Of a DNA stretch of 64,000 nt, positions 50,843 to 55,929 are shown one piece after another. The stretch comes from Gammaproteobacteria bacterium (GTDB lineage Bacteria; Pseudomonadota; Gammaproteobacteria; Steroidobacterales; GCA-2729495): NCBI GenBank assembly GCA_030746435.1, contig JASLMV010000003.1, positions 62,001 to 126,000 on the forward strand, written 5' to 3'. Below the pieces are notes generated by a model, which worked only from the letters and a program-made list of their open reading frames with translations, was not told the DNA's origin and did no database searches. The position numbers and the translations under genes are program-made. Within the stretch, counting starts at the first letter, position 1. Each line of letters starts with the position of its first letter.

Positions 50843-51199
50843 TTAAACGGGCTGGTCGGGGAGAGGTTCAGGTTCGTCCAGCGGTTCCAGTTGTTCCAGT
50901 TCACTCTGCCAGTCAAGGAACAAGGGTTGTCTGCTGCCGGGGAGGTCTTCGGCGTTGATATCGACTGAGCCTGTCCAGTCTTCCGGTGCTTCGGCGGGTT
51001 CAGGCAACATTGCTATCCAGCCATCGGGTTCGGTTTCTTCAAGGGTTCCGTCGAAGTGCTGAATTTCAATGGTGCCGTCGTGGTCGTCAATAGCAATCAC
51101 CTCGAACAGGCTACCACCACGATCACGATACCAGCGGCCGATTTCCGGAGCTTCTATCCCATGTTTGTATACCTTCTGGTCCCGGTTATGCGGGGCCAC
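50843..51199 (-). CDS. Conserved small acidic protein of unknown function
   Basis: The 118-residue protein begins with a motif common in small uncharacterised gammaproteobacterial proteins: GRWYRDRGGSLFEVIAIDDHDGTIEIQHFDG (about 21-51), likely a small beta-barrel. The C-terminal half is acidic and rich in Pro and Glu. No catalytic motif is visible. The pattern resembles DUF6763, but I cannot confirm this. It is convergent with the Rieske gene and 51 bp from trmB, in the same direction. Confidence 0.6.
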   Translation of the reverse strand: MAPHNRDQKVYKHGIEAPEIGRWYRDRGGSLFEVIAIDDHDGTIEIQHFDGTLEETEPDGWIAMLPEPAEAPEDWTGSVDINAEDLPGSRQPLFLDWQSELEQLEPLDEPEPLPDQPV

Positions 51200-51979: not shown

Positions 51980-52202
51980 AATAGCCTGTCCGCTGCCAGC
52001 CCACGGCTGGTGCAGGGGAACCCCGGGAAGTCGCAGCCGGTCGGAAAGGTTACCGGGCTTAGCTGTGGAGGCAGGGTTAACCCTTCTGACACCCCTGATG
52101 TGCCCGGCGGCCATCGCGGCACGGGACAGGTGCGCTTTTGCGTCAGGCCGCTAAAATACCCCGCCCGGCAGGAAGTCGGGCTTAACCGTGGTGAGGAAGA
52201 TT

Positions 52203-54398
52203 GTGGGATCGTCAAAGAATAATAACCATCGACCCTGGCTTGGGGTTGTGGCGGCAGTAGCGGTAACTTTACTTTCAGGGTGCGGTAGCTCGGATCCGGA
52301 CTTGCCTCCGTCCGAGGATTTGTCCGCGTCGGTTCTGCAGGTCTCCGTCAATTCGTCGGGCCGGCTGATTTTCCAGTGGCTGGTGTCGGGCGGCATCGAT
52401 TATTACAAACTGTCTGTTGATCCCGATGGTATTTCAGGCTTTGTCGAGCTCGTGGAGCGGATTCTCCTGACCGACGACGTCTCCGGGATTTTTTCTTTCG
52501 TCGCGCTCGCATCCCCCGAAATCAAGCTGGCCCTGGCGGAATTCCTGCTGGAAAGTTGCCTGGAAAACGACCCGGCCGACCCGGACGATGACGACTGCGA
52601 TCCGCTGGGGGTTACGGTATTTCCTGTACCGGCGGGCGAACTGCTTTTCCAGTGGGAGAAGCAGGATGGTGTGACCCATTACCGAATCTCGATCGACCCG
52701 GACGGTCTTTCGGGTTACTCGGTGCTGGCGGATTTCATACCGGATGATGAGCCCTTCTACATCCACGAAGTATCGACCCTGAATTTCTCCTGGGCCGATG
52801 CGCGTTTCCTGCTTGAGAGTTGCATAGATGCGGTATGTGAAGTCCTCGGTGAACAGGTATTGAAGGATGCTTCAGTCTTTTCGGTCGGTATTCTTGAACC
52901 ACCCGTCAGCGCATTTCATTCCTTGTTCGGCTCCTCGGTCGCACTTAGTGAAGACGGCAATACGCTCGCTGTCGGAGCGCCGGGCACTAGTGATTTCACC
53001 TGCCTGGAAATAACCGGCTACACGCAGGAAGAGTTTGATGCACTTGAGCCCGGCACATTTAACGTGCAGTGCATCTACATTATCCCGGACGATCCGGACG
53101 GCGATCCCGATGACCCCGACGATGATTTCATCCCGCCGACCTCACTGCCTGAAACACTTTTTCAGGCTGGGGCAGTCTTTATTTATACGCGGGACGTGCT
53201 GGGCTGGAGCCTGCAGAACACGCTGGAAGCCCCCAACCGCCAGGCCGGTGACAACTTTGGCTGGGCAATAGGTTTGAGCGAGGACGGCACCACACTGGCG
53301 GTGACCGCACCAGCGGAAGACAGTGCTTCCAGCGGTGTAGGTGGCGAACAGGATGATACCGATAACGAGGCCCTGGACTCCGGTGCAGCGTATGTATTCA
53401 CGCTCATGGGCGACGAGTGGGAACTGCAGGAGTACATAAAGGCATCTAACACCGGGGAAATGGATCTGTTTGGCTGGCGAGTCGCACTTTCGGGCGACGG
53501 TGATGCGCTGGCGGTAGGAGCGGTACTGGAAGCGAGCGGGGATGCAGGCGATCAGGATAACGACGATGTTGAACGCGCAGGCGCCGTTTACACCTACACA
53601 AGGGCCGGGGATGTCTGGACCCCGCGAGATTACCTGAAGGCGCCTGACATAGACGCGAACGACCTGTTCGGTATGTCACTTGCTATGAACATGGATGGTG
53701 AATACCTTGCGATCGGCGCTATCGAAGAAGGTGAGCCCGGGTCACTCGACGGCCGCTTCCGTATCTGTAACCCGGGTGTCGGCGCCGGGGAAGGCACCGT
53801 TTATATGTTTGAGCGGGTTGCCGATTCATGGGCTTACTCTGCATCAATCGAGGCATCCAATGCAGGTACGGCAGATTGTTTCGGTGTTTCGGTCGACCTG
53901 AATGATGATGCGACACGACTGGCTGTCGGTGCCCCGCTCGAGGATAGCCGTGCAACGGGTGTAAACGGTGCGGAAGGCGACAACGATGAAACCAATTCCG
54001 GCGCAGCCTATCTTTTCGAGCGAGTGGCAGATGTCTGGTCTCAGACCAACTACTTCAAAGCATCCAATACCGGCACGCCCGATCAGTTGGGCGGTGCCGT
54101 GCGCTTGAGCAGCAGCGGCAGTGCGCTGGTTGCAGGGGCCATTGGCGAAGCAAGTCCGTCATTTGGTATCGGCGGTGGTCAGAGTTTCAATACCGTCCCT
54201 GGTTCAGGGGCGGCTTACGGGTACCGGGAAGACGGCGGTGCATGGGAGCAGATCGCTTACATCAAGCCGAGCATTCCCCGGTCGCTAATCAACTTTGGGT
54301 GGCGGATGGATATTGCCATGGATGGGCAAGAACTCGTCGTGGCTGCACCAGGCTGGGAACTGGCTGCAGGTTACCAGGGCATCGTCTATAGCTACTGA
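52203..54398 (+). CDS. FG-GAP repeat surface lipoprotein with duplicated N-terminal domain
   Basis: A lipoprotein signal ends in LLSGC. Two copies of a domain of about 100 residues follow (near 55-150 and 150-240). Each has a FQW start, a DPDG-SG core and an end in LLESC. Then come seven FG-GAP/integrin-like propeller repeats from about 245 on, each with a core like LSEDGNTLAVGAPG, and acidic calcium-binding-like loops (DDPDGDPDDPDDD). It would form a beta-propeller on the cell surface. I take GTG 52203 as start because GAGGAA precedes it by 6 bp; GTG 52188 is an alternative. The ligand is unknown. Confidence 0.8.
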   Translation: MGSSKNNNHRPWLGVVAAVAVTLLSGCGSSDPDLPPSEDLSASVLQVSVNSSGRLIFQWLVSGGIDYYKLSVDPDGISGFVELVERILLTDDVSGIFSFVALASPEIKLALAEFLLESCLENDPADPDDDDCDPLGVTVFPVPAGELLFQWEKQDGVTHYRISIDPDGLSGYSVLADFIPDDEPFYIHEVSTLNFSWADARFLLESCIDAVCEVLGEQVLKDASVFSVGILEPPVSAFHSLFGSSVALSEDGNTLAVGAPGTSDFTCLEITGYTQEEFDALEPGTFNVQCIYIIPDDPDGDPDDPDDDFIPPTSLPETLFQAGAVFIYTRDVLGWSLQNTLEAPNRQAGDNFGWAIGLSEDGTTLAVTAPAEDSASSGVGGEQDDTDNEALDSGAAYVFTLMGDEWELQEYIKASNTGEMDLFGWRVALSGDGDALAVGAVLEASGDAGDQDNDDVERAGAVYTYTRAGDVWTPRDYLKAPDIDANDLFGMSLAMNMDGEYLAIGAIEEGEPGSLDGRFRICNPGVGAGEGTVYMFERVADSWAYSASIEASNAGTADCFGVSVDLNDDATRLAVGAPLEDSRATGVNGAEGDNDETNSGAAYLFERVADVWSQTNYFKASNTGTPDQLGGAVRLSSSGSALVAGAIGEASPSFGIGGGQSFNTVPGSGAAYGYREDGGAWEQIAYIKPSIPRSLINFGWRMDIAMDGQELVVAAPGWELAAGYQGIVYSY

Positions 54399-54469
54399 GA
54401 CAGGCTTTCTGATGCCGGGTGGTTACGTTTGGCCCGGGCTGCCAGCACGGCAAGTCCTGATGCCATGAA

Positions 54470-54913
54470 TCAAACTGCAGGCGGTACCGGAATGGTTGTT
54501 TTGGCAGCCATCTGTGTGCGGTAGATCGAGTTCCCCGGTGCCGGGAAACCCGGGAAATTTTCATCAATGTAGAAGTAAATACTCTTAGCGCCCAGTTTAC
54601 AGCCGACGATCTCCACTGCACGGGTGATGTTGTCGATTGTGAATCCAAGGAGGTTGCCATCGAACGCGAATCCGCTACCCGTCGGGCGTACGGTCAGATA
54701 GTTGGCGAACCAGCTTTGCACCCGGTTGCCGAACGAATCTTTGTCATCGTTGAAGGTAAAACTTTTGTAACCCGCCGGTACTATGCCCGGCAGTGATGCA
54801 TTAGGGTTGACGGGCATTACTTCAGCTTTATCGCCCACAAAAAAGCAGCAGGCCACTAGCAGTGAACCTACAATTGAAGCCACGAAATTTTTTGAGAAGT
54901 TGTGTCGCATCAC
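54470..54913 (-). CDS. PEP-CTERM-like secreted protein with sorting signal cut by TGA
   Basis: The 147-residue open frame begins with a signal peptide and a beta-rich domain, and ends IPVPPAV followed by TGA (54472-54470). Read through that stop, the frame goes on for 25 codons to TAG at 54394-54392 with a hydrophobic stretch (FMASGLAVLAA) and a basic end (RAKRN). The usual form of this exosortase signal in Gammaproteobacteria is IPVPPAVW plus a membrane helix plus Arg/Lys; here the Trp codon TGG is TGA. Without readthrough the protein would not be anchored or sorted. It is convergent with the FG-GAP gene. Sequencing error, mutation or recoding are possible. Confidence 0.65.
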   Translation of the reverse strand: MMRHNFSKNFVASIVGSLLVACCFFVGDKAEVMPVNPNASLPGIVPAGYKSFTFNDDKDSFGNRVQSWFANYLTVRPTGSGFAFDGNLLGFTIDNITRAVEIVGCKLGAKSIYFYIDENFPGFPAPGNSIYRTQMAAKTTIPVPPAV

Positions 54914-55119: not shown

Positions 55120-55929
55120 TCAGTTCGCCTGGTCGAGAAGCCAGACGCCATCAGGCAATTCGTCATTGGAACTCAGTGGCTGGCCTCTCCCGGACTGCAG
55201 AGAATCGAGTTTCTGGTGCAATTTATGCATCTTGTACGGTCTGAACCAGACCTGCATAACCCATTTTTCAGCATCTTCATCTTCAATCGGCAGTGCGGCG
55301 TGCAGTGTTTCCCGGTGAATGCTGCCGTCGGGATTTATGTTGGTCCAGCACGCGGCACGGCCCTTCCACGGCCGCATAGCGACATTCAGATCGCGGAAGT
55401 AGGTGACGCCACCCTGAGACTCTTCAAGGTCATTCAGATAGACAAGTAGTGTGCAAAGGCGATGACTGGCAAGGTAGTCATCTGAAAAATCATAGTGGCC
55501 ATGGTAAAACTCACCAGGGCCGTAACGGGTGACATAGATTTGCTCGGCGTGCTCCAAAGGCACACCAATAAGCATCGCGGCTCGAGCTATTATCGACAAT
55601 ACTTTCGGGTCCTGGTGATAGCGATGATGAACAACCGCGTGAGATGAGGTACGGCCTGATTCCAGGATCGCTTTACCGTCCACTATGACGCGACTCTTGA
55701 TCATGCTCTTGCGGGCCTTTTCAATAAGGTAATTGGCTTCATCCGCAGTACAGAAGTTGTCAATGACCTTAATACCCGTGTTAGCCAAAGTGGTCACACT
55801 GAAACCATCCGGGATATATCGCAAAGGACTGAACCGGATGCGGGTTGGAAGCAGTTTTGAAAGATAATAATTCTTGCGGTAATCCAGGATGCTGAGGCGG
55901 CGTCTGATTTTTTTTAGTAGTTCGTTCAT
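55120..55929 (-). CDS. 2OG-Fe(II) oxygenase, prolyl 4-hydroxylase alpha-like (copy 1)
   Basis: The 269-residue protein has the P4H-type double-stranded beta-helix. Metal ligands H145 and D147 lie in HYD, the distal H210 in RETLHAALP, and the 2-oxoglutarate-binding lysine K222 in EKWVMQVWFR. It would hydroxylate a protein or small molecule using 2-oxoglutarate and oxygen. It is a tandem paralogue of the next gene, from which it is 6 bp away, sharing a similar start (R-x-P-x-x-IPDGFSV) and end (LSSNDELPDGVW). Confidence 0.87.
   Translation of the reverse strand: MNELLKKIRRRLSILDYRKNYYLSKLLPTRIRFSPLRYIPDGFSVTTLANTGIKVIDNFCTADEANYLIEKARKSMIKSRVIVDGKAILESGRTSSHAVVHHRYHQDPKVLSIIARAAMLIGVPLEHAEQIYVTRYGPGEFYHGHYDFSDDYLASHRLCTLLVYLNDLEESQGGVTYFRDLNVAMRPWKGRAACWTNINPDGSIHRETLHAALPIEDEDAEKWVMQVWFRPYKMHKLHQKLDSLQSGRGQPLSSNDELPDGVWLLDQAN

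Follow-up and report, generated by a model that had tools for sequence, protein, structure and literature searches.

A TGA probably at the tryptophan position of an exosortase-type sorting tail in a small orphan gene of a gammaproteobacterium

The window, that is the whole stretch of 64,000 nucleotides that was analysed, carries a small candidate gene on its minus strand, located between an FG-GAP repeat gene and an oxygenase gene. The features considered here are listed below with the evidence for each in brackets.

54470..54913, minus strand, candidate small exported protein, ORF of 147 aa of no known family (sequence, gene-like codon use, family searches)
54836..54892, minus strand, hydrophobic segment at the N-terminus spanning residues 8-26, a likely signal peptide (by eye; predicted helix)
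54473..54493, minus strand, IPVPPAV, the recognition-motif half of an exosortase tail (alignment to genus tails)
54470..54472, minus strand, TGA in frame, at the column where most genus tails have Trp (genus tail alignment)
54392..54469, minus strand, stretch after the stop, 25 open codons and TAG (sequence, tail matching)
52188..54398, plus strand, convergent neighbour, FG-GAP repeat protein of 736 aa (Pfam PF14312; counterparts in L036 and L037)
55120..55929, minus strand, upstream neighbour, 2OG-Fe(II) oxygenase of 269 aa (Pfam PF13640; relatives similarly placed in G002 and G003)

The ORF starts at GTG 54913 or ATG 54910 and is ended by the TGA at 54472-54470, IPVPPAV forming its C-terminus. 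The original prediction held that the frame meets a TGA after IPVPPAV and then continues with a hydrophobic helix and a basic end. This layout was confirmed: 25 codons, FMASGLAVLAARAKRNHPASESLSQ, remain open up to the TAG at 54394-54392 and comprise a hydrophobic FMASGLAVLAA, a basic RAKR and a final NHPASESLSQ. The end of the tail shares 7 bases with the 3' end of the convergent FG-GAP gene. At the N-terminus, residues 8-26 are helical in a single-sequence structure model (mean pLDDT 36) and no clear A-x-A site was seen by eye in this likely signal peptide.

The codon use of the body lies at the 37th percentile of 88 in-frame windows and exceeds that of all sense out-of-frame windows and of 98-100% of the antisense windows. 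The 25 tail codons reach the 28th percentile of 642 in-frame windows and exceed about 99% of the sense out-of-frame windows, with a score above only 62% of the windows in one antisense frame; the signal is therefore stronger in the body than in the tail. Since both parts display gene-like codon use and the frame beyond the TGA is free of any further stop until the TAG, the nonsense change looks young.

In order to compare the tail with known ones, a position matrix was derived from 39 intact family tails of the exosortase type, taken mostly from top-scoring loci and selected by a rule requiring W, the W column itself being omitted. Applied to the 3740 stops found in the six frames of the window, the matrix assigned +15.5 bits to the TGA at 54472, well under the score of the collected tails (at least 55), and -12.9 to the next best stop. 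The 12 residues following the stop were also compared alone to the genus tails and scored 37, the next best value being 25 among the 2379 stops with 12 or more open codons behind them; a score of 37 was attained by 1 in 20000 shuffles. The matrix score far outside all other stops of the window and the shuffle result together indicate that the tail is not due to chance. Moreover, motif, hydrophobic helix and basic cluster stand in order at the C-terminus only when the frame is read past the TGA. With the TGA taken as W, the sequence scores 15.8 bits against TIGR03370 (NCBIfam VPLPA-CTERM), under the cut-off of 25.35, and 11.6 bits against the PEP-CTERM protein family PepA (cut-off 80), while the body without its tail obtained no NCBIfam match at E<=5. 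A search of the window genome (G000) with a profile of five tails retrieved the window tail weakly, as 9th of 11 rows (E 0.26). Judged from these comparisons, the sequence after the stop appears clearly to be an exosortase tail, though far from the commonest type, and the PEP-CTERM-like sorting signal initially proposed is supported as an exosortase-type, VPLPA-like tail.

Tails of this type do occur in the genus: among the 98 tails compared with the W column left out, the nearest one is VPLPPAIWLMGSGLVMLAAR, followed by ARRQSA (also written VPLPPAIWLMGSGLVMLAARARR and VPLPPAIWLMGSGLVMLAARARRQSA). It belongs to a 256-aa protein encoded in a genome of the same genus (G001:C75, L232:166-936). 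The two tails share the same layout and 14 of the 22 compared residues, and differ in that the G001:C75 protein has W where the window gene has its stop. The bodies of the two proteins are not similar, the G001:C75 locus giving E 1.9 only.

The position of the stop was then read against the genus as a whole. The tail profile matched 113 rows at E<=1 in five genus genomes. Stretches for the column tally were taken from 110 of these, the remaining three (G000:C22:2495, G000:C13:38470 and G002:C48) being read separately. At the column of the stop, 93 of the 96 distinct genus tails scoring 25 bits or more have W (two have Y, one R). When the limit is lowered to 12 bits, W is found in 102 of 111 distinct tails, with Y in 4, R, C and M in 1 each and the column not reached in 2. 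This tally is biased to W because the profile was built from W-bearing tails. Eight of the 10 tails nearest to the window tail likewise have W. The TGA thus probably occupies the Trp position of the tail, as had been claimed. The proposal that a single change from TGG explains the stop fared less evenly: the stop most likely arose in one step from a Trp codon, a history weakened by two similar PLPPAA-type tails of the same genus, L220 (G004:C8) and L227 (G001:C75), which have M or L at the column, and by a body lacking a convincing homologue. In two further tails, L189 and L191 (VPIPAAVYLFGSALLGLSW and VPVPAAVYLFGSALLGLGW), Y replaces W; they are separated by about 1.3 kb on the same contig (G004:C5).

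Stops were found in four of the 113 genus tail rows. In two of them (G001:C126 and G004:C8) the protein ends naturally behind the basic cluster, and they were rejected as further cases of a stop within the tail; a third (C37) is a remnant, and the fourth is the window gene, the only row with a stop at the W column. The stop-bearing rows of G026, G016 and G009, among the best 150 family rows listed, likewise end naturally at this point. No stop at W was present in G002:C48 or in L221, L225 and L228, partial rows of doubtful kind whose start lies near or beyond the W column.

The original prediction had also pointed to a search of the genome for an exosortase, which returned a single enzyme, a matching XrtD on G000:C35. 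It scores 583.2 bits against TIGR04152 (cut-off 400), covers profile positions 2-486 of 486 and is full-length; the chain also carries an EpsI-type domain. As the sole exosortase found is XrtD, which is VPLPA-CTERM-specific, tail type and enzyme belong together. The window gene resembles the known VPLPA-CTERM (TIGR03370) or PEP-CTERM systems with XrtD (TIGR04152) in its PxP motif and, once the frame is read past the TGA, in a hydrophobic helix and basic C-terminal end, and resembles their substrates as a small orphan protein, predicted to be exported, with XrtD in the genome. It differs from them by the TGA at the Trp column, which leaves the tail unread under the normal code.

The remaining tails of the genome were inspected as well. 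Of the 11 profile rows obtained at E<=10, five are strong tails, and C22:83469, C37 and the window tail were accepted as further real ones. Rows C22:2495 and C13 were judged from their sequence to be chance matches and the eleventh row, C22:162434, was left out of the resulting count of eight tails. Four of these eight (C7, C22:84373, C29 and C33) end open genes that are apparently intact by eye. The other four stand in broken genes, namely the window gene itself; C22:83638, whose body is interrupted by a TGA in frame (L039:4041-4039) and whose near ATG is put out of frame with the signal peptide at an A-run; C22:83469, whose tail and signal peptide are in different frames; and C37, a tail without a body. 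Two C22 substrates exceed the TIGR03370 cut-off, one at 30.5 bits and the other, its body TGA taken as W, at 29.7 bits, and the TGA-bearing C22 gene had no homologue in 40 family genomes. Relatives too have tails without a body (G002:C155, G002:C154 and G004:C5), so the loss of bodies is not special to the window genome. At E<=1, 10 tail rows were counted in the window genome versus 23, 29, 28 and 23 in G001-G004 (completeness 87 to 99), counts that depend on a profile made from five of the window genome's own tails. The window genome shows a smaller, and perhaps shrinking, set of XrtD substrates despite its full-length XrtD.

The surroundings of the gene were compared with those of related genomes. 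Using tblastn, 8 of the 9 neighbouring frames were found to have counterparts in G002 over most of their length and in the same order, with the FG-GAP gene in two pieces and trmB starting from residue 41; the 118-aa frame at 50843-51199 had no counterpart in the matching G002 region. The slot flanked by the FG-GAP gene and the oxygenase is variable and is occupied in the window by the orphan gene. In G003 the two flanking genes are 17 bases apart (L036:3327-3343), and in G002 the slot is filled by a glycosyltransferase-like gene and others (L037:4063-6683). The oxygenase had no match in G001 and G004, so the comparison of the slot covers G002 and G003.

Searches with the 147-aa body gave no Pfam match at E<=1. 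No convincing homologue was obtained in 60 relatives, 40 family genomes (best other E 0.02) and 369 class genomes, nor in GTDB contigs, IMG/VR, plasmids and the 3032 ORFs of the compared loci, the GTDB-contig and IMG/VR scans being of a kind that detects close relatives only. A match in G377 (E 0.0016) was rejected as it concerns a long repeat protein of the multicopper type. Matches to L017 and L018, FAD monooxygenase-like by eye, reached E values as low as 8e-5 by blastp against the small set of 3032 ORFs; those to L019 and L020, outer-membrane receptor-like by eye, were weak as well. All of them are short gapped alignments and were taken as chance.

These observations are best explained, with good though not full confidence, by a recent in-frame nonsense mutation at the Trp of the tail in a short-lived gene for a small exported XrtD substrate, by which the second half of the tail was lost. 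The other broken substrates, the low count of tail rows, the variable slot and the W of the nearest tail speak for this recent loss; the lack of a convincing body homologue, the tail score under the cut-off and the M or L of the two PLPPAA tails were counted against it. The intact protein would be exported through its N-terminal signal and then anchored in the inner membrane by the tail's hydrophobic helix, where XrtD would recognise the PxP motif, cut, and pass the protein on towards the surface. The present allele stops before the helix and its product, if made, would be released unprocessed into the periplasm or the medium. We infer the ancestral W, the expression of the protein and this fate of its product; on the best explanation, the outcome is either a young pseudogene or a secreted protein in soluble form. 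The loss of the tail looks like a recent mutation in a fast-changing gene family and not like a new decoding trick.

The main rival to a recent nonsense mutation is an error of assembly or consensus, or a consensus that fixed the variant of a minority strain, the tail being intact in most living cells. It was considered possible but rather improbable. The genome is a 38-contig draft and the frame is unbroken apart from the TGA, both of which speak for this rival. However, the local sequence looks sound rather than error-ridden given the 8 of 9 neighbouring frames matched in G002, the difference is of the substitution type with no indel, and the C22 and C37 cases would have to be explained by errors of their own or by real decay. 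One consensus sequence looks the same for a young pseudogene, a tolerated soluble form and an assembly error.

Leaky or programmed readthrough of the UGA was judged very unlikely. It would yield mostly a soluble secreted form, a minor share gaining the XrtD tail; the UGA would then be retained as a low-level switch sending a small tailed share to the surface, and the TGA-bearing C22 gene would be a further case, a scheme to which equally little credence was given. It is favoured by a tail that is well kept and uninterrupted after the stop, by UGA being the leakiest stop codon, and by the presence of a second exosortase substrate of the genome with an in-frame TGA (L039:4041-4039). That second gene is however damaged in other ways too, and a stop at W is absent from all 112 other genus tail rows. 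The base following the TGA is T, a poor context for readthrough. RNA folding of three stretches after the stop revealed no structure beyond that of shuffles (z 0.69, 0.20 and -0.02), and no Rfam element was found at E<=1. For non-overlapping window ORFs of 150 aa or more, the frame stays open beyond the stop for a mean of 44 codons after TGA, 26 after TAG and 68 after TAA (n=26, 14 and 9), values which do not point to a run-on specific to TGA. No UCA or suppressor-type tRNA was present among the 38 RF00005 matches. A G24A change in tRNA-Trp is a UGA suppressor; the single tRNA-Trp(CCA) of the genome keeps G24 and has an anticodon stem of 5 bp (positions by eye). Owing to this 5-bp stem it is not of the type with a 4-bp anticodon stem that, according to PMC13092985, can let bacteria read UGA. 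A change of the genetic code finds no support either, given the same lack of a UCA tRNA among the 38 and the use of TGA as the commonest ordinary stop, ending 30 of the 56 window ORFs of at least 200 aa, overlapping frames included. The suggestion that the stop is read through to make a secreted and an anchored form thus received no positive support from stop usage, tRNAs, folding or the other tails. The literature search retrieved no paper joining exosortase with readthrough or PEP-CTERM with a premature stop codon, and we know of no reported exosortase sorting controlled by readthrough. If true, readthrough would constitute a new means of splitting one protein between two places; the evidence leans against it.

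It is just as improbable that the gene encodes a functional soluble protein for which XrtD was never used in its present form, the sequence after the stop being chance or an old relic: the 147-aa frame shows gene-like codon use by itself and the tail codon score is indistinguishable from one antisense frame, but the tail match is far beyond the background of the 3740 stops and the score of its post-stop half was equalled by so few shuffles.

With a recent nonsense mutation, the window gene would show an exosortase substrate losing its sorting tail or having only just lost it, while XrtD is full-length and 4 of the 8 tails detected in the genome stand in broken genes. Premature stops in inlA remove the anchor and release the protein. 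The window gene is comparable to such inlA alleles of Listeria, in which premature stops shorten an LPXTG surface protein (PMC5131979), in that a premature stop truncates a surface protein, and differs from them in that a sortase, a Gram-positive envelope and many isolates are involved there, and one consensus sequence here. According to Haft 2006 (PMC1569441), PEP-CTERM genes are often duplicated and lost and are typically without homology outside the tail. The loss of the tail is in line with this frequent gain and loss, and makes the birth and death of fast-evolving surface proteins concrete. It also carries a warning for annotation, as substrate genes deprived of their tail resemble those of plain soluble proteins. 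As a side observation, XrtD substrates are arranged in tandem at L039:3400-4600 (G000:C22, about 83.4-84.6 kb), one of them being intact and two broken.
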